Assembly (NCBI RefSeq): GCF_900156055.1 | Contig: NZ_FTMQ01000003.1 | Location: forward strand, 558,001-622,000 | Length of the DNA: 64,000 bases | Direction: 5' to 3' | Source: Rhizobium sp. RU33A | GTDB taxonomy: Bacteria > Pseudomonadota > Alphaproteobacteria > Rhizobiales > Rhizobiaceae | Shown: piece after piece, positions 36,656 through 44,900 of the stretch | Position numbering within the stretch: position 1 is the stretch's first letter | Layout: the number at the start of each line of letters is the position of its first letter | The notes under the pieces: model-generated | Seen by the model: only the letters and a program-made list of their open reading frames with translations | Told to the model about the DNA's origin: nothing | The model's database searches: none | Made by a program: the position numbers and the translations under genes

Positions 36656-38161
36656 ATGGCGAAAGAGATGGATGGATGGCACATGCCAGGCGCGAACGCC
36701 GCGCGGCGTCTTGGCCTGCCGGCCATGGTAAAGCTGTCCTCCATAGTGCTGATCACGCTTTCGGCCTTGTCGCTGCTCTTCATCGGCTACATCGCCTCGC
36801 GCAAGGCCGATGATATCGCCGCCGAAAAGCAGACCATGCTGCTGGAGAATGTGCTGCGAGATCGCCAGAGCCTGCTGGCCCGCGACCAGCTGGGTCTGGC
36901 CCGCTGGGATCGCTCGGTGAAATACATCACCCTCAAGTTTCACGCCTCCTACGTCATTGAGGAATTCGTCTCTTCGCTCTGGTACGATTTCGGCCATGAG
37001 CGCAGTTTCCTGATCGGCCCCGGTGGTCGCGTCTTGATGTCGGCCTGGCAAGACGAGGTGGATCTGACCGCCCGCGATCTGAAACCCGGCGATGATCTGA
37101 GGGCACTCGCCGAACTGGCGCTGACCCGCCACCACGCGCATCGCACCACGATCGACGGTGGTTTCGGCCAGCGGCCGGTGCCGACATCGCAAGTGCATGC
37201 CATCGCGGCCTTCGGCTTTGCCGAAGTCGACGGAGAGGTCATGCTGGCGACCGCCATGGCGATCGTGCCCGACGACGGCGAGGTGGCGCTGCCGCAAGGC
37301 GACCCAGTCATCCTGGTCTCTGCCCGGCCAATCGATGCCGATCTGGTGGCCGATCTCAACTCGCAACTCGAATATGAAAACCTGCAGTTCAACCGCAATG
37401 GCGACGGGTTGCTGACGGTGAAAAGCGCCGATGGTCAGGCACTCGGCAGTTTCGACTTCACGCTGTTCAAGCCGGGTGCCGATATCTGGACCATCGTCGT
37501 TCCCGCCGTCGTCTTGCTCTGCGGCCTCATGTTCGCCGCAAGCTTCGTGCTCGGCCGCTATATCGGCAGGCTGTCGGAGCGTCTGGAGGAGAGCGAGTGG
37601 CGCAACCGCGAGCTCGCCCATCGGGATGCGCTCTCGGGCCTTGCCAACCGCCTCTGCTTCGACAAGGCGCTGCACGAGGCCGCCGATCGGCTGGCCCATG
37701 CGCCGTTTGCGGTGATCGCCTGTGATCTCGATCGTTTCAAGGCCGTCAACGATCTGCATGGCCACGGCGCCGGCGACGAGGTCATCCGCGTGGTGGCCGA
37801 GCGGCTCCGCGAGGCCGTTGGTGAAAACGGTCTGGTCGGCCGGGTCGGCGGCGACGAATTCGTCATCCTCGTGCATGCCTTCCGCGACCGGCCGCGCTTG
37901 TCGATGCTCGCCCAGTCGATCATCGCCTCGGTCTCCCGGCCGATTACGCTCTCGACCGGACCGGAGGTCGATGTCGGCATCAGCCTCGGCTTGGCTATAG
38001 CGCCCGAAAACGGTGCAGCCGCGCGGCCGATCATGGCGATCGCCGACCGGGCGCTCTATGCATCCAAGCAAGGTGGCCGGGGACGCTCCTTTTTCGCCGA
38101 GGATCTGGTCCCGGAGGACGGGGCGCGGGCGGAAGCCGCAACTCGGGTCGACGCGGCCTGA
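36656..38161 (+). CDS. Membrane CHASE4-GGDEF diguanylate cyclase
   Basis: 501 residues. TM1 at about 25-47, a periplasmic CHASE4-like sensor with RDQLGLARWDRSVKYI (residues 76-91), TM2 at about 277-300, then a GGDEF domain with DLDRFKAVNDLHGHGAGDE and the active site GGDEF at 398-402. Makes c-di-GMP from GTP. The RxxD inhibitory site five residues before the active site is absent (GENG there), so no product feedback by that route. No EAL domain. A CtrA-like motif precedes the gene. Confidence 0.92.
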   Translation: MAKEMDGWHMPGANAARRLGLPAMVKLSSIVLITLSALSLLFIGYIASRKADDIAAEKQTMLLENVLRDRQSLLARDQLGLARWDRSVKYITLKFHASYVIEEFVSSLWYDFGHERSFLIGPGGRVLMSAWQDEVDLTARDLKPGDDLRALAELALTRHHAHRTTIDGGFGQRPVPTSQVHAIAAFGFAEVDGEVMLATAMAIVPDDGEVALPQGDPVILVSARPIDADLVADLNSQLEYENLQFNRNGDGLLTVKSADGQALGSFDFTLFKPGADIWTIVVPAVVLLCGLMFAASFVLGRYIGRLSERLEESEWRNRELAHRDALSGLANRLCFDKALHEAADRLAHAPFAVIACDLDRFKAVNDLHGHGAGDEVIRVVAERLREAVGENGLVGRVGGDEFVILVHAFRDRPRLSMLAQSIIASVSRPITLSTGPEVDVGISLGLAIAPENGAAARPIMAIADRALYASKQGGRGRSFFAEDLVPEDGARAEAATRVDAA

Positions 38162-38357
38162 TGATCCCTGCGCGAGCGGCGAAGCGCTCTGTCGCCTTCA
38201 GGCGGGCGGTCTCACCGCTGCCGGGCGCATCAGGGGCCGCCGGTCTGATCTTGCTGGTAGAAGAACATGGCCGCGCCGGAACACTCCGCCCGTCTTCGAG
38301 CAGAGAGCGGGAGGTTCCACGCCGGGTCGGGAGGCGACGCCAAGACGCAGAGCCGTT

Positions 38358-38669
38358 TCAGGAGGCCTTTTGTTTTGGCTGGACGGCCGGGGCGGCGATC
38401 ATCTTGACCTTGGATTCGGCCAGTCCGTGATGGCCTTCCATGTCGACGATCAGATGCCAGTGGCCGCTTTCCGGAATGGCGATCTTCAGCGGCGACTTCT
38501 TCGCTACGCCACCCTGGAATTTGTAATCGAGCGTTTCCTTGAAGCGCTGAAAATTGGCCGGCGTCATCAGCCGCACATTGTTCACCGCCGACAGCGTCAC
38601 TTCGATGATCGTGCCGGCACGCTGTTCCTTCAGGTCGTAATGGGTGAAGCGGAAGGTCGGTTTGGACAT
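38358..38669 (-). CDS. DUF1883 domain protein
   Basis: 103 residues. MSKPTFRFTHYDLKEQRAGT and the SGHWHLIVDMEGHHGLAES motif identify DUF1883, a small beta-rich family of unknown function sometimes fused to TIR domains; no TIR domain is here. Ribosome site GGAGA upstream. The C-terminus ends in a lysine/glutamine tail. Confidence 0.8.
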   Translation of the reverse strand: MSKPTFRFTHYDLKEQRAGTIIEVTLSAVNNVRLMTPANFQRFKETLDYKFQGGVAKKSPLKIAIPESGHWHLIVDMEGHHGLAESKVKMIAAPAVQPKQKAS

Positions 38670-38820
38670 TTCGCTTGGGTCTCCGTCCGTCTTTTAATCT
38701 ATCGTAATGTACCGCAAGGCCGTTAAGGAAGCGTTCGGCGGGCGGGCTCGATAGGTGGGGCAGGGCGGACTTTTTTGGGACGCGGCGTTTATCGGAATGA
38801 AAGAGGGTAGGGCTGTCTGT

Positions 38821-39015
38821 CCTCTCCCCCTTTGTGGGAGAGGTTACAAAATCGAGGGCTTAGCCGATCAGGGCTAAACCTCAGATTTTGTTGGTGAGGG
38901 GATCGGTGCTGCGGGCACGGCGAACGGCCCCCCTCACTTGCGATTTCAGATGTTTAGGCGGCTTGCGCTCGCCTAATTCATCGAAATCGCTTTCTCCCCC
39001 ACCAGGGGGGAGATG
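38821..39015. repeat. Double-palindrome repeat, copy 1
   Basis: About 195 bp built of two hairpins. First: CAAAATC/GATTTTG (38847-38853 with 38884-38890) around TTAGCC/GGCTAA. Second: GCGATTTC/GAAATCGC (38940-38947 with 38983-38990) around TAGGCG/CGCCTA. Both ends carry C-run/G-run hairpins (CTCCCCC...GGGAG). Same architecture as the copies at 39903 and 40756 but with swapped and compensated arms. Confidence 0.85.
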
Positions 39016-39039
39016 GGTTCCGCGGAGGCGTCTCGACGC

Positions 39040-39141
39040 CCTCATGCTGAGGTGCCCGCGTGAAGCGCGGGCCTCGAAGCATCCTGCGAAGGTGGCCTCG
39101 CCCCTTCGAGGCCCTGATGTGTCGGGCACCTCAGGGTGAGG
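39040..39141. repeat. 102-bp imperfect palindromic element
   Basis: The 19-bp ends are inverted copies with 17 matches (CCTCATGCTGAGGTGCCCG at 39040-39058 and CGGGCACCTCAGGGTGAGG at 39123-39141). Inside are a CGCG...CGCG mini-hairpin and CCTCGAAG...CTTCGAGG. This looks like the palindromic intergenic repeats common in Rhizobiales genomes. Confidence 0.75.
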
Positions 39142-39206
39142 GGAAAACTCATGCCCAAGCTTCGCCGCCGGTCGAGATCAACTCCCTCCGGGTGGGGCAT
39201 GCTCGC

Positions 39207-39226
39207 CCTCGGGTTAAACCCGAGGG
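39207..39226. repeat. Near-perfect 21-bp palindrome
   Basis: CCCTCGGGTT at 39206-39215 is mirrored by AACCCGAGGG at 39217-39226 around a single central A. No gene context; part of the repeat mosaic. Confidence 0.6.
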
Positions 39227-39231
39227 ATCGG

Positions 39232-39300
39232 ACGAGGCGCCAGAAGCAACCTGTCTAAGTAATGTATGTGGCTCCTTCCGGCGCCTCGTTCGGCGTTTTT
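39232..39300. repeat. Long-armed hairpin followed by a T run
   Basis: ACGAGGCGCC (39232-39241) pairs perfectly with GGCGCCTCGT (39280-39289) over a 38-nt loop, with a further GAAG/CTTC match inside. CGGCGTTTTTT follows, so it has terminator shape on the + strand although no gene precedes it. Confidence 0.5.
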
Positions 39301-39902
39301 TCCCGCTGCATGCATCTCTCTGGCAAGGCGGCGACGGTCCTTGGAACTTGCGTTCCAGGGATGACCGGGCGCGGGTCCGGCTGCGGCGTCACCGCGAGAT
39401 GACGCTTCAGCCTGGCCGGTGGCCCGGGAGGTTCCCGCCGGATGGTGCACCATTCCGACCGGGACCCTCGCCCGGGGGATGGGGCTTTGGCCATTTGCGA
39501 CCTCACCATCATCCCCGCCGTTTTATCCGCCCCGCCGTCTGGATGTTCGCGACAGCGCTGGCGCCTTGTCTGTGTGCCTCTGAGGCACGTCCTTCCGATC
39601 GGGGTATCCAGCTCCGGGGCATCCGACCCAGTCACCTTCGTATCCAGCCCCACGTCCGGAGGGAGACCGTTGCAGCGGGCCGGGGATTTGTGCCTGCGAG
39701 AGCACGCCACCCCGGCGCCGGCCCCGCCTCGCCTGACATCGCATCGTCAGGTGTATCCGAGGGCGGGACGGGGATTAGGGTAAAGCAGGGGAAATGGTGG
39801 GGGATGAAAAAACATGTCGGGATTTGATTTTGCTCGGAATTTTCTCAAACGCATCCCCCTCGCACTGTGGGAATTGAGAGGTTTTGGGCGGCTTGCGCGG
39901 GG

Positions 39903-40110
39903 CCATCTCCCCCCTTGCGGGGGAGAAAGCGATTTCGATGAATTAGTCGTGGCGCAAGCCACGGCTAAACATCTGAAATCGCAAGAGGGGGGCTTGGTCA
40001 GGCTCTTGCCCACGGAACCGTGCCCCTCTCCAGGAAAATCTGAAGTGTAGGCGGCTTGCGCTCGCCTAAGTCTTCGATTTTCCGTCCTCTCCCGCTTGGG
40101 GGGAGGTGGG
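39903..40110. repeat. Double-palindrome repeat, copy 2
   Basis: 208 bp. First hairpin GCGATTTC/GAAATCGC (39929-39936 with 39975-39982) around CGTGGC-GCAA-GCCACG; second GGAAAATC/GATTTTCC (40033-40040 with 40076-40083) around AGGCG...CGCCT. Bounded by CTCCCCCCTTGCGGGGGAG and a C-run/G-run hairpin ending GGGAGGTGGG. Same orientation as copy 3, so the two are direct repeats around two small genes. Confidence 0.88.
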
Positions 40111-40114
40111 CGGC

Positions 40115-40294
40115 TCACTTCGGGGTGCAGGTCATTCCATTGCGTTGTGCGTTGCTGATGCAATCGCTCTTGTTAATGTAGCTCTCTGCCGAAGCGCCCA
40201 CTATCCTGCCGTTGGGTGCCGTCCGTCGCCACCGCCACCCATCGCTTTTGTAGATCTCCCAGGTATCGCCATTCTTGTCCTTACAGCTTTCCAT
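40115..40294 (-). CDS. Small YegP-like (DUF1508) protein
   Basis: 59 residues, too short for many gene finders. The core DTWEIYKSDGWRWRRTAPNG followed by RIVGASAESYINKSDC matches the DUF1508 repeat (EIYK...WRWR...NG...S..Y..K..C). Ribosome site GGAGGACATA 6 bp before ATG 40294 supports expression. Single repeat rather than the two of E. coli YegP; function unknown. It lies within the direct-repeat-bounded segment, 4 bp from copy 2. Confidence 0.75.
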   Translation of the reverse strand: MESCKDKNGDTWEIYKSDGWRWRRTAPNGRIVGASAESYINKSDCISNAQRNGMTCTPK

Positions 40295-40391
40295 TATGTC
40301 CTCCCTCCGAAAGCAGCCTTGATGCCTACCGGATGCCTCTTTCCTTTGCCACGAACCGAGTGCAATCTCTGGTGGTTTTCGAGGGGCTCGA

Positions 40392-40751
40392 ATGACGCAT
40401 CGCGAGGTTCCGCACCATCACCGCCACTTTGCTCGCACCACGCGGGCAGATGCCACCTGGGCTGAGAACCGGCTCTGGCAGGTGCTGCGGGCGAAACAAT
40501 TCGGTGGCTTCAAGTTTCGCCGGCAGGTGCCGGTCGACGGCTATATCCTCGATTTCGTCTGCTTCGAGGCGCGGCTGATCGTTGAGGTGGATGGGCATCA
40601 GCATGCCGATAGCGAGCACGATGCGCGGCGGGATGCCTGGTTTCGCGCCCAGGGTTTTCGGGTGCTGAGGGTCTGGAATGGCGAGATCGAGGACAATCTC
40701 GATGGCGTCTGCAGTTTCATCGTGGATGAGTTGAGGAACACTGGCGAGTGA
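40392..40751 (+). CDS. DUF559 (Vsr-like endonuclease fold) protein
   Basis: 119 residues. LWQVLRAKQFGGFKFRRQVP, DGYILDFVCFEARLIVEVDG and RVLRVWNGEIEDNLDGV are DUF559 hallmarks; the D...E.D pattern (ILDF, VEVDG) fits the restriction-endonuclease-like fold related to Vsr. Activity is unproven in the family. The first start is ATG 40392 (MTHREVPHHH). Repeat copy 3 begins 4 bp after its stop codon and copy 2 ends 281 bp before it. Confidence 0.85.
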   Translation: MTHREVPHHHRHFARTTRADATWAENRLWQVLRAKQFGGFKFRRQVPVDGYILDFVCFEARLIVEVDGHQHADSEHDARRDAWFRAQGFRVLRVWNGEIEDNLDGVCSFIVDELRNTGE

Positions 40752-40755
40752 GGCC

Positions 40756-40956
40756 CCATCTCCCCCCTTGCGGGGGAGAAAGCGAAATCGAGGAATTGGC
40801 CCGATCAGGGCCAAACCTCAGATTTCGCAAGAGAGGGGCACGGTAAGTTGTTTGCCCACGGAACCGTGCCCCTCTCCAGGAAAATCTGAAGTTTAGGCGG
40901 CTTACGCTCGCCTAAGCCTTCGATTTTCCGTCCTCCCCCGCATGGGGGGAGGTGGG
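40756..40956. repeat. Double-palindrome repeat, copy 3
   Basis: 201 bp, direct repeat of copy 2. First hairpin GCGAAATC/GATTTCGC (40782-40789 with 40821-40828) around TTGGCCC/GGGCCAA; second GGAAAATC/GATTTTCC (40879-40886 with 40922-40929) around AGGCG/CGCCT. The central stretch GCCCACGGAACCGTGCCCCT is identical in copies 2 and 3. Arms differ from copy 2 by paired, compensating changes. Confidence 0.88.
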
Positions 40957-40974
40957 ACCATCCTGCCTACAATA

Positions 40975-41649
40975 TCAGACTTCTGGTGACGGCTGATCTG
41001 GCGGTACAGTAGGCTTCCCGCCGCCGCGCTCCTCGATTGAAGCTAGACAAAGCCGTTCCAGATGGGCCATCAGGTCGTTCGCTAAACCTTGATAGGTTTT
41101 GGGATCATCGGACCACCGATAAAGCTTCATGTCCTGAAGTGACAGCACTGCAAAGTCGTCTGCCGCATCAGTATTCCGAGGCCAGTTCCGTTGGACCAGT
41201 GTTAAAGCTGCAAGAACCAGATGTCGGGAAAGCTTGGTACCTTTTGTGTTCCAGACATGAATGGCCACACGTTTTTGATCAAGCTTGACTACACAATCCG
41301 CGTCAAAGCGAACCTTGAATAGTGAGGCTGGGCTTTCGACGATGACGGAGTCACAGTTTGAGAGTGTTCCGGGATTCAGTCTCCGCCATTTAAGGTAACG
41401 GATAACCCCGCGCTTGGCAGAATGCCGTTCCGGTACCTTTTTGATCGAGCTTAAAGCCGATAGAAGTTCAGGTGCTGTCTGACTGCCACTATTGAGGTTT
41501 TGGAGGGCGAGGCGAAGGCTTCGATGGAAATCATATCCATTCCGTTTCGAAGGTTTGTAGCGCTCACGAATTGCCGATTTTTGGGGTGATTCGTTTAGCG
41601 AAATCAGCCGCAAGAATGCGGAGAAACCAAATGTCGGTGTCTTGGACAA
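40975..41649 (-). CDS. Uncharacterised protein of lower G+C
   Basis: 224 residues with a TTG start at 41649 behind AAAGGAACACACC. No family recognised. A basic N-terminal third (RERYKPSKRNGYDFHRSLRL) is followed by a mixed alpha/beta region (VAIHVWNTKGTKLSRHLVLA) and a polar proline-rich tail. Its base composition is visibly nearer 50% G+C than the surrounding genes, and it sits next to the repeat cluster, both suggesting later acquisition. Confidence 0.6.
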   Translation of the reverse strand: MSKTPTFGFSAFLRLISLNESPQKSAIRERYKPSKRNGYDFHRSLRLALQNLNSGSQTAPELLSALSSIKKVPERHSAKRGVIRYLKWRRLNPGTLSNCDSVIVESPASLFKVRFDADCVVKLDQKRVAIHVWNTKGTKLSRHLVLAALTLVQRNWPRNTDAADDFAVLSLQDMKLYRWSDDPKTYQGLANDLMAHLERLCLASIEERGGGKPTVPPDQPSPEV

Positions 41650-41774
41650 GGTGTGTTCCTTTGTTGAAAGTCAGTGCCTGTGCTCGACTCTCAATCCGAC
41701 TCCTCGTAAGGTAACCTTGTCACAGGGTGAGGAGAGATCTTCGCCTCGCATAAGCACTTAGCTTGTTGCGATTT

Positions 41775-41808
41775 CGAAACCGGCATCATTGCAGTGATGC
41801 CGGTTTCG
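41775..41808 (-). terminator. Hairpin downstream of nrdJ
   Basis: Perfect 14-bp stem CGAAACCGGCATCA/TGATGCCGGTTTCG (41775-41788 with 41795-41808), 6-nt loop. It lies 107 bp past the nrdJ stop and before the orphan gene's start. The T run on the minus strand is weak (GGTTTCG), so function as a terminator is likely but not certain. The rest of 41650-41914 shows no gene. Confidence 0.6.
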
Positions 41809-41914
41809 TCGTTTTGGGGCGAAGCTGCAGTCAGGAGTTCATTCCTGTTTCGTTCCGCCTTGCACTTCGGCCCGAGGTTTCCCCCGGGCCGAAATCTCAC
41901 TCAATTCTCAGCCC

Positions 41915-44900
41915 TCAGCTGCACCCGCTCGTCGCGCCACACGTGTCGCACTTCTCGCAAGTGCCGTTCCGCACCATCGTGAAGTTCTGGCATTCCGAGC
42001 ACATGTTGCCCGTATACCCTTGCGCAATCGAGCGCATGCGGCGCGAGGCCTCGAGCTTCTTGGCGTCGGCCTTGGCGGCTGCTGCCTCATCCGCCGCAGC
42101 GTCGGTGAAGACGCTTTCGGAGGCGATCTCCTCGGCCAGTTCCACGGCGCGTTCCTCGTAGTCGCGCTTGAAGGACACGACCTCAGAGGTGGCGATCGCG
42201 GTCGTCACTTCCAGCTTGCGGGCAGTGGCGCCCGAAGAGGAGAAGGCGGTGACGGTGGCGGATGCCTTGGCGGGGGCGGCTGTTGCTGCACCCTTGGGCT
42301 CGCTGCCCGCCGCAGCCGGCATGTGGCTGGAGACGAGCGTCGGCTTGTAACCGCGGGTCAGGCCCTTGGAGACGACATCCGCCTTGCCTTCCTTCACGCC
42401 ACGGCCGAGTGCGGTCGTGGAGAAGTCGGAGGTGTCGACATGCGCGAGATCGTTGCGACCGAGATAGGAGATCGCCAGTTCCCGGAAGACGTAGTCGAGG
42501 ATCGACGTCGCATTCTTGATCGCATCGTTGCCGGTGACCATGCCGGCCGGCTCGAACTTGGTGAAGGTGAAGGCGTCGACATATTCCTCGAGCGGCACGC
42601 CATACTGCAGGCCGAGCGAGACGGAGATGGCGAAGTTGTTGATGAAGGCGCGAAGGGCCGAGCCTTCCTTGTTCATGTCAAGGAAGATTTCGCCGAGACG
42701 GCCGTCGTCATATTCGCCGGTGCGCAGGAAGATGGTGTGACCACCGATCTTGGCCTTCTGGGTATAACCCTTGCGGCGCGTCGGCAGCTTTTCCTGTTCG
42801 CGCACGACACGATCGACGATGCGCTCGACGATGCGTTCCGTGATGGTGACCGCCTGGGCCGCCATCGGCTGCTGGAGCAGTTCGTCTACGCCGTCCTCGT
42901 CATCCTCGTCCTCGATCAGCGAGGCGTTGAGCGGCTGGGAGAGCTTCGAGCCGTCGCGGTACAGCGCGTTGGCCTTGAGGGCCAGCTTCCAGGACAGCAT
43001 GTAGGCGGAGCCGCAATCCTCGACTGTGGCTTCGTTCGGCATGTTGATCGTCTTGGAGATCGCGCCCGAGATGAACGGCTGGGCCGCTGCCATCATCCGG
43101 ATGTGGCTCTCGACCGAGAGGTAACGCTTGCCGATCTTGCCGCACGGATTGGCGCAATCGAAGACGGGCAGGTGCTCCTTCTTGAGGAAGGGGGCGCCTT
43201 CGAGCGTCATCGCACCGCAAACGTGGATGTTGGCGGCCTCGATGTCCTTCTTCGAGAAGCCCATGTGGTCGAGCAGGTTGAAGCTCATGTCGGCGAGCTG
43301 CTCGTCGGAAACTTTAAGGGTTTCCTTGAGGAAGTCGGCGCCGAGCGTCCACTGGTTGAAGACGAACTTGATGTCGAAGGCAGCCTTCAGCGCACCGTTG
43401 ACGGCTTCGATCTTCTCGTCGGTGAAGCCCTTGGCACGCAGCGTCGAGGGGTTGATGCCCGGCGCCTGGTTCAAGTTGCCATGGCCGACGGCATAGGCGT
43501 CGATTTCGGCGATCTGGCTTTCCGAATAGCCGAGCGAGCGCAGCGCTTCCGGAACGGCAGCGTTGATGATCTTGAAGTAGCCGCCACCGGCGAGCTTCTT
43601 GAACTTGACCAGCGCGAAGTCGGGCTCGATGCCGGTCGTGTCGCAGTCCATGACGAGACCGATCGTGCCGGTCGGGGCGATGACCGAGACCTGGGCATTG
43701 CGGTAGCCATGCTTTTCGCCGAGCGCCAAAGCCTTGTCCCAGGCGGCCGTGGCATGGGCGATCAGGGCCGGATCCGTGCATTCGGCATGAACCAGCGGCA
43801 CAGGATTGACGGAGAGGCCTTCATAGCCGTCCGACAGGCCGAGCGCTGCGCGGCGATGGTTGCGGATGACGCGCAGCATGTTGTCGCGGTTCGGCGCAAA
43901 GCCCGGGAAGGGGCCGAGTTCCGAAGCCATCTCGGCTGACGTCGCATAGGAGACGCCGGTCATGATGGCGGTGAGCGCACCGGCGATGGCACGGCCCTCG
44001 GCGCTATCATACGGGATTCCCGAGGACATCAGCAGGCCGCCGATATTGGCATAGCCGAGGCCGAGCGTGCGGTATTCATAGGAGCGTTCGGCAATCTGGC
44101 GCGACGGGAACTGCGCCATCATCACGGAGACTTCGAGAACGACGGTCCACAGGCGAACGGCATGTTCGTAGTCGGCGATGTCGATGTTCTTGGTCTTCTG
44201 GTCCTTGAAGCGGAGCAGGTTCAGCGAAGCCAGGTTGCAGGCCGTGTCGTCGAGGAACATGTATTCCGAGCACGGGTTCGACGCGCGGATCGGGCCGGCT
44301 GCCGGGGAAGTGTGCCAGTCGTTCATCGTCGTGTTGAAGTGCAGGCCCGGATCTGCCGATGCCCAGGCGGCATAGGAGATCTTGTCCCAGAGGTCGCGGG
44401 CCTTCAGCGTCTTCATCACCTTGCCGTCCTTGCGGGCGGTCAGGTTCCAGTCGCCATCATTCTCGACGGCGCGCAGGAAGTCGTCCTTCAGCGAGACCGA
44501 GTTGTTGGAGTTCTGGCCGGAGACGGTGAGATAGGCTTCCGAATCCCAGTCGGTGTCATAGGTCTTGAAGTCGAGATCCTTGTAGCCCTGCTGGGCAAAC
44601 TGGATGACGCGCTTGATGTAGTTTTCCGGAACCTGGTCCTTCTTCGCGGCCTTGATTTCGCGCTTGAGGGCAGGGTTCTCGTTCGGGTCAAAGCAGGCGC
44701 CGTTGTCAGCCTCGCAGTTGACGCAGGCCTTCATGATCGCCTTCAGATGCTTGGCGACGACCTTGGAACCGGTGACGAGGGCTGCAACCTTCTGCTCTTC
44801 CTTCACCTTCCAGTCGATATAGGCTTCGATATCCGGATGGTCGATGTCGACGACGACCATCTTGGCCGCGCGACGCGTGGTGCCGCCCGACTTGATGGCG

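Follow-up and report, generated by a model that had tools for sequence, protein, structure and literature searches.

A DUF559 gene between copies of a double-palindrome repeat in Rhizobium suggests a REP/RAYT-like partnership of DUF559 nucleases with CTCCC-hairpin repeats

Dispersed palindromes shape bacterial genomes. The RIME elements of Rhizobium, said to go back to Osteras in 1995, are reportedly intergenic mosaic elements of rhizobia, and we know of no nuclease gene that is tied to them. RIME elements of rhizobia are also mentioned in the excerpted text of PMC2573895. For RAYT and REP, the available sections of Nunvar 2010 (PMC2817692) describe flanking, matched subtypes and co-abundance together. 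In the literature consulted here, RAYT of the GTAG class is the sole partner enzyme to be named, and the CGTC class is reportedly without one, according to the portion of PMC3733652 used here. The BoxC/PIT/TMECO motif occurs in 18 regions per genome, and the consulted sections of PMC4666352 report no mobility genes (transposases, integrases) near it. Enterobacter 638 carries 100 CCCTCTCCC palindromes, for which excerpts of PMC2869309 presume a role in termination. With respect to the nucleases discussed below, YcjD was employed as a member of the PD-(D/E)XK group and its profile detects Vsr (PMC1189080, in part), and the Caulobacter DUF559 protein VsrA has been proposed to be a mismatch-repair nuclease and has been linked with a DNA-damage response (PMC12907096, in part).

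The window, by which we mean the whole 64,000-nucleotide stretch of DNA that was analysed, comes from the genome of Rhizobium sp. RU33A (G000, 4.85 Mb). Two forward-strand copies of a double-palindrome element, copy 2 (39903–40110) and copy 3 (40756–40956), form the upstream and downstream flanks of a cassette. They are direct repeats with 85% identity over 208 bp, and the only genes that they enclose are a DUF1508/YegP-like gene of 59 aa on the reverse strand (40115–40294) and a DUF559 gene of 119 aa on the forward strand (40392–40751; PF04480, Pfam E = 7e-38), whose stop codon is separated from the start of copy 3 by 4 bp. Copy 1 lies on the reverse strand at about 38819–39020, inverted with respect to copies 2 and 3. 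A preliminary description of this DNA had pictured two same-orientation copies enclosing a 59-residue and a 119-residue gene, copy 3 beginning 4 bp past the DUF559 stop (40751/40756) and an additional copy 1 kb off, and the alignments and coordinates agree with it on all of these points, copy 1 being in the opposite orientation. Its naming of the smaller gene as DUF1508 stood only in part: the gene is present, but its Pfam match (E = 5e-4, 20.3 bits) falls below the curated cut-off of 22, and it is therefore called YegP-like only. Such a gene accompanies DUF559 in 5/6 cassettes of the window's gene clade, these being the ones read at site A, the chromosomal site of the window's cassette. The genome contains exactly one DUF559 match and 33 blast places of the repeat, a tally in which both strands of one palindromic element are often counted separately. 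An Rfam search of 38000–42000 returned nothing up to E = 1, so the window's repeat is not a described RNA family. Adjoining copy 1 is another palindromic sequence (39039–39142) with 20-nt arms that are 90% complementary; its first arm also occurs at the corresponding place in two other genomes (G001 and G062), which makes it probably a separate dispersed repeat family. Following copy 3, an open reading frame of 224 aa (40975–41649) has no Pfam match and was seen in the window's own genome only (tblastn, 29 site-A loci).

We modelled the window's DUF559 protein with AlphaFold2 (mean pLDDT 83.9, pTM 0.79) and compared the model with known structures using Foldseek. The matches included 3hrl, a gonococcal endonuclease-like protein (E = 7e-8); 3r3p, the homing endonuclease I-Bth0305I, which was the second structural neighbour (E = 2e-5) and also matched DUF559 at the sequence level (E = 0.004); and E. 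coli Vsr (1vsr), at rank 7 (E = 7e-3, probability 1.0). Judging by the model, the protein is predicted to be a Vsr-fold PD-(D/E)XK nuclease, and the Vsr-like endonuclease fold proposed in the preliminary description is upheld by the 3hrl and 1vsr matches. In an alignment of 33 sequences including the window's, D54, E65, D67, G68, H71, D77 and R80 are among the invariant residues, which makes it likely that the protein is an active nuclease, catalysis being predicted from these residues. We also considered plasmid carriage and rejected it: 25 PLSDB plasmid records match the protein, all at <60% identity, so that no close relative of this gene was seen among those plasmids.

The repeat element itself is about 205 bp long and consists of two inverted half-units of about 80–105 bp, each with a hairpin of the CTCCCCC-loop-GGGGGAG type followed by a longer imperfect arm. 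Folded as single-stranded DNA, copy 3 adopts four arms at -82.5 kcal/mol, compared with -34.4 for shuffles (z -13.9; 0/200 shuffles equally stable). We aligned 65 of 103 half-units, drawn from 298 full-length model hits in a selection that favoured full-length, high-scoring hits, and RNAalifold predicted 24 pairs in this alignment. At 16 of the 24, the pair was kept with both sides changed in at least one sequence, a count that rests on related sequences. Since pairs are kept despite changes on both sides, the hairpin arm is preserved as a structure across genera. Read by eye, the consensus of the 65 half-units is free of the tetranucleotides GTAG and CGTC.

Across the genus, 51/63 genomes have a DUF559 match, with 120 matches altogether. 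For 110 of these we collected at most 20 kb of surrounding sequence (110 domains at 108 loci); the ten matches left out were weak (E = 3e-8 or worse), and nine fell within open frames longer than 400 aa. With a repeat model built from 12 copies of the window's own genome, the repeat was found within 400 bp of 31/110 domains, on both sides of 28 and only downstream of 3. On the DUF559 tree these domains coincide exactly with two clades, one of 10 and one of 21 rows, in which 31/31 are flanked, compared with 0/79 elsewhere; placing the repeat-flanked label on the tree takes 2 changes, against a mean of 27.3 when it is shuffled. Among 12 control regions of 19 kb, set at round coordinates in six genomes rather than drawn at random, 1 contained a repeat hit. 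The 31 flanked genes occupy about four chromosomal sites, in an assignment where contig ends truncate some of the loci: most are at site A or at a second site, B, and two genes lie elsewhere. Many of the flankings must therefore have been inherited together rather than arising by independent insertion, and we rejected independent insertion at 31 sites. The repeat subtype mostly follows the gene clade. At site A, and likewise at site B, two gene clades are present and their repeats differ, the two repeat sets are unlike within each of the 7 genomes that have two flanked genes, and for 82/87 near-gene repeats the best match at another locus adjoins a gene of the same clade, a figure that includes partly orthologous DNA.

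A model-free test, which compared the 700 bp before each gene with the 700 bp after it, found similar flanks (>40 bits) at 29/31 flanked genus genes and at 39/78 of the other genus genes. The repeats at these other genes are missed by the window's repeat model, and many are strongly palindromic with a CT-rich hairpin. One DUF559 clade of 16 rows (L102, L108–L110, L112, L114–L116, L118, L131 (8032), L150 (7800), L162–L165 and L168) has no similar flank pair (0/16), and a hairpin within 350 bp is absent in 12/16; this clade may be a housekeeping, repair-type branch.

Orthologous positions differ in whether they hold the repeat. At one of them it is absent in G002, roughly half-length in G025, G026 and G046, and full in G017; copy 1 is absent at the corresponding place in G062 and in G001, the latter with a short hairpin-like remnant. 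Site A was readable in 13 cassette-less genomes over the interval between DUF1883 and a ribonucleotide-reductase-like neighbour that we take to be nrdJ; eight of these genomes have one repeat there, four have two and one has none. Sites lacking the cassette, for which the preliminary description had recommended a search, thus exist with a solo repeat or with none. No clear target-site duplication was seen at the presence/absence sites examined.

The window's repeat was matched in at least 23/24 genomes that have the flanked gene and in at least 18/39 of those that do not (p = 3e-5). It is also held by at least four of the 12 genus genomes without any DUF559 match (G003, G020, G032 and G043). 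The preliminary description had named repeats in genomes lacking DUF559 as a finding that would speak against a tie between the two; they do occur, in at least 4/12 such genomes, and the repeat is nonetheless commoner where the gene is present. The gene is therefore not needed now, which argues against strict dependence, and gene loss after the repeat had spread, or other means of spread, must be allowed. G032, a distant species with no DUF559, has five full copies (L292–L296) that are 90–94% identical to the window's copy and 91–94% identical to one another within each orientation, so that they are not decayed; its neighbouring DUF1883 protein has 73% identity. These copies are a hint that the repeat itself may have spread horizontally. 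The arms of two other repeat families, about 50–60 bp long, matched in at least 60/63 and at least 45/63 genomes of the genus irrespective of the presence of the cognate gene, and nearly all of the full-length matches listed for these families were at the genes. A strict dependence of one repeat on one gene was rejected, as both repeats and arms occur without a cognate gene.

In the wider family, the gene-clade profile matched in 194/297 genomes. Among the best 30 of the family loci, the window's included, a repeat-model hit lay within 400 bp at 28/30 (E up to 0.1) or 26/30 (E up to 0.01), and the signature hairpin described below was near 28/30 (control 0). Flanks were similar (>40 bits) at 21/30 of these best family loci and at 53/77 named loci, which are mostly from Pseudomonadota with a few from other phyla. 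Control intervals shifted by 3.5–5.5 kb, which are intervals and not genes and cover the genus and named sets only, exceeded 40 bits in 0/103 cases for the flanked genus genes, 3/301 for the other genus genes and 5/232 for the named loci (8/636). The signature CTCYCCC-N2..14-GGGRGAG was picked ahead of the phylum counts and after viewing the flanks of loci that in part were also among those scored. It was present within 350 bp of 167/220 DUF559 genes, and its reversed control near 0/220. In every group, hairpin density was 1.0–4.6 per kb within 300 bp and <0.4 per kb past 500 bp. Many of the other DUF559 genes, both in the genus and in other phyla, have repeats of a different kind with a CT-rich CTCCC-loop-GGGAG hairpin in common.

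At L284 (G331:C7:1823318–1824224), two tandem DUF559 genes with equal scores stand 595 bp apart from start to start, and the pair may have arisen when gene and repeat were recently duplicated together. In Mesorhizobium sp. 1M-11, about 26 kb of a single contig separate the DUF559 loci L191 and L193, one of which has a cluster of repeat hits 4–7 kb off.

We then counted genes and hairpins in 396 Pseudomonadota genomes, searching for PF04480 and for TCTCCCN{2,14}GGGAGA, the motif search including its own reversed control. The median motif count was 41 where the DUF559 match was strong (120 genomes; E up to 1e-20, a class fixed after the tables were viewed), 1 where it was weak (45 genomes) and 1 where there was none (231 genomes), and the control median was 1 throughout. 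Motif-rich genomes (≥10 motifs and ≥3x control, a rule likewise fixed after the tables were viewed) made up 95/120, 8/45 and 19/231 of these classes; 95/120 against 27/276 for all others corresponds to an odds ratio of 35 (p about 1e-42). In the families containing both kinds of genome, the median was higher with DUF559 in 14/16 and lower in 2. We rejected a RAYT/Y1 transposase as the driver at the phylum level: 59/193 genomes with Y1_Tnp and 63/203 without it were motif-rich (odds ratio 0.98, p = 1.0), and the DUF559 odds ratio was 30 and 42 in the two Y1_Tnp strata, so that the link is seen with or without Y1. At the best 30 phylum loci (one per genome), the hairpin was near the gene in 26/30 and the control in 1/30, using a slightly looser hairpin pattern and the domain end as gene end; 14/30 had similar flanks (>40 bits). 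Exceptions run both ways, with 27 motif-rich genomes that lack a strong DUF559 match and 25/120 strong-DUF559 genomes that are not motif-rich. The correlation has no direction, and the nuclease might conversely be kept by genomes because they are rich in repeats. Taken over all of these samples, the enrichment of the repeat around DUF559 genes of relatives that the preliminary description anticipated is found in two genus clades (31/31), in other genera and, as a hairpin, across the phylum, but not at the other genus domains (0/79).

In E. coli, ycjD is a DUF559 gene that sits between sapF and fabI, and megablast found it in 3365/5426 complete genomes. In a K-12 strain, CCCTCGCCCCTCTGGGGAGAGGGTTAGGGTGAGGGG starts 168 bp past ycjD and has a degraded hairpin at its end, as read by eye. 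The same sequence is identical to motif 9 of Holder 2015 and to three more of the 23 motifs given in the excerpted part of that paper (PMC4666352), where the listed position of motif 9, in another K-12 record, fits the place after ycjD. The BoxC/PIT flank is on one side of ycjD only. With 18 regions per genome, we estimate that a chance adjacency of ycjD and BoxC of this order would arise in roughly 0.2–1% of cases. Neither ycjD, fabI, sapF nor an (endo)nuclease is mentioned in the main text of PMC4666352, as far as it was available. A ycjD-less E. coli genome is not a simple empty site, and we rejected this comparison: the one genome read has efflux genes right after sapF, in agreement with the sections of PMC12817139 consulted.

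Flanking, cognate subtypes and co-abundance are all REP/RAYT traits, so that DUF559 (YcjD-like, Vsr-fold PD-(D/E)XK) nucleases and CTCCC-loop-GGGAG repeats probably, in our moderately confident view, form a partnership that works like REP/RAYT without being a member of it. In such a system, a nuclease gene inside copies of its own repeat would serve a dispersed population of short palindromes. The nuclease would recognise the hairpin, either when it is extruded or when it is exposed as single-stranded DNA at forks, and nick or cut at or near it, whereupon repair synthesis or strand switching could copy the repeat unit elsewhere; the DUF559 gene itself would be carried by the same repeats and inherited at few sites. 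We infer, as the preliminary description did, that the nuclease may mobilise or maintain the repeats. Alternatively, DUF559 could be a homing-type selfish gene, a free-standing endonuclease cutting pre-existing repeats that something else had made and being copied into them. The second structural neighbour of the protein is indeed I-Bth0305I, the gene is short and its occurrence is patchy, and at site A 12/13 cassette-less genomes have 1–2 repeats where others have repeat-YegP-DUF559-repeat. Mere use of a target, however, does not predict that genome-wide abundance of the signature tracks DUF559 across the phylum, and repeat subtypes specific to gene clades also speak against homing, which we regard as unlikely.

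The lack of direction in the phylum correlation would also suit palindrome-rich genomes selecting a Vsr-like, structure-specific nuclease for hairpin tolerance or repair, with no repeat spreading by the gene. In its fold the protein is similar to a nicking enzyme of DNA repair, and Caulobacter VsrA has been linked with a DNA-damage response (PMC12907096, in part), but the presence of repeats directly at both sides of the gene and the clade-matched subtypes would be left unexplained, and we think this reading distinctly improbable. Least probable of all, to the point of being very doubtful, is that a small gene was simply caught between recombinogenic repeats and moved by homologous recombination only. 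The flanking repeats are direct, repeats also occur without the gene, and at site B the orientation of the gene relative to its neighbours varies among genomes, all of which a passenger would allow. It fits poorly with 31/31 flanked domains in two clades against 0/79 others, with the same association recurring elsewhere with unrelated repeats, and with shifted intervals that are rarely bounded by similar flanks (8/636).

Extending the partnership of nuclease and repeat further, DUF559/YcjD proteins could be the drivers hitherto missing for a third superfamily of dispersed palindromes that spans the phylum, made up of CTCCC-hairpin repeats including the window's, the Enterobacter CCCTCTCCC palindromes and BoxC/PIT; we put this forward tentatively, as a possibility somewhat short of an even chance. 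If true, no earlier genome-wide palindrome system known to us would have had a PD-(D/E)XK nuclease in place of an HUH transposase to run it. DUF559, a domain of unknown function, would gain a role, ycjD would be tied to BoxC, and a long-standing question would become directly testable in K-12. If causality were reversed, there would still be a strong link of hairpin load with a repair-like nuclease. The open-access literature searched, in the portions available, contained no link of DUF559 or ycjD to repeats, and the results suggest a nuclease–repeat partnership that was previously unrecognised.

Several described systems can be set beside this locus. The window's element and RIME, likened by description only, may be the same or related repeats. 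Vsr and the DUF559/VsrA nucleases share a fold family with the window's protein, and the excerpts of the papers on them (PMC12907096, PMC1189080) do not tie the family to repeats. Compared with a homing endonuclease, the window's gene is free-standing and intergenic, and site A has solo-repeat and cassette alleles with no split target seen. Compared with a MITE, the element has inverted halves and presence/absence sites, with no clear target duplication seen. The CCCTC-CCC...GGG-GAGGG hairpin of BoxC/PIT/TMECO carries the same signature as the window's repeat, but the full pattern CCCTCNCCC-N3..6-GGGNGAGGG-N3-GGGNGAGGG does not fit the window copies when read by eye, since they have one hairpin per half and lack the second GGG-GAGGG block that defines the BoxC triplex motif. 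With regard to REP/RAYT, the enzyme there is Y1/HUH (PF01797), which has no match in the window's genome, whereas here it is PD-(D/E)XK; REP carries a GTAG (or CGTC) foot tag, which the half-unit consensus lacks, and the window's half-units are, unlike REP, doubled to about 205 bp. The resemblance to the REP/RAYT pattern drawn in the preliminary description accordingly does not extend to the enzyme (PF04480, not Y1/HUH) and holds for the architecture, in flanking and in matched lineages: as in the REPtrons described in the available parts of PMC2817692 and Di Nocera 2013 (PMC3733652), an enzyme gene lies amid its own dispersed palindromes, and the lineages of the two are matched.
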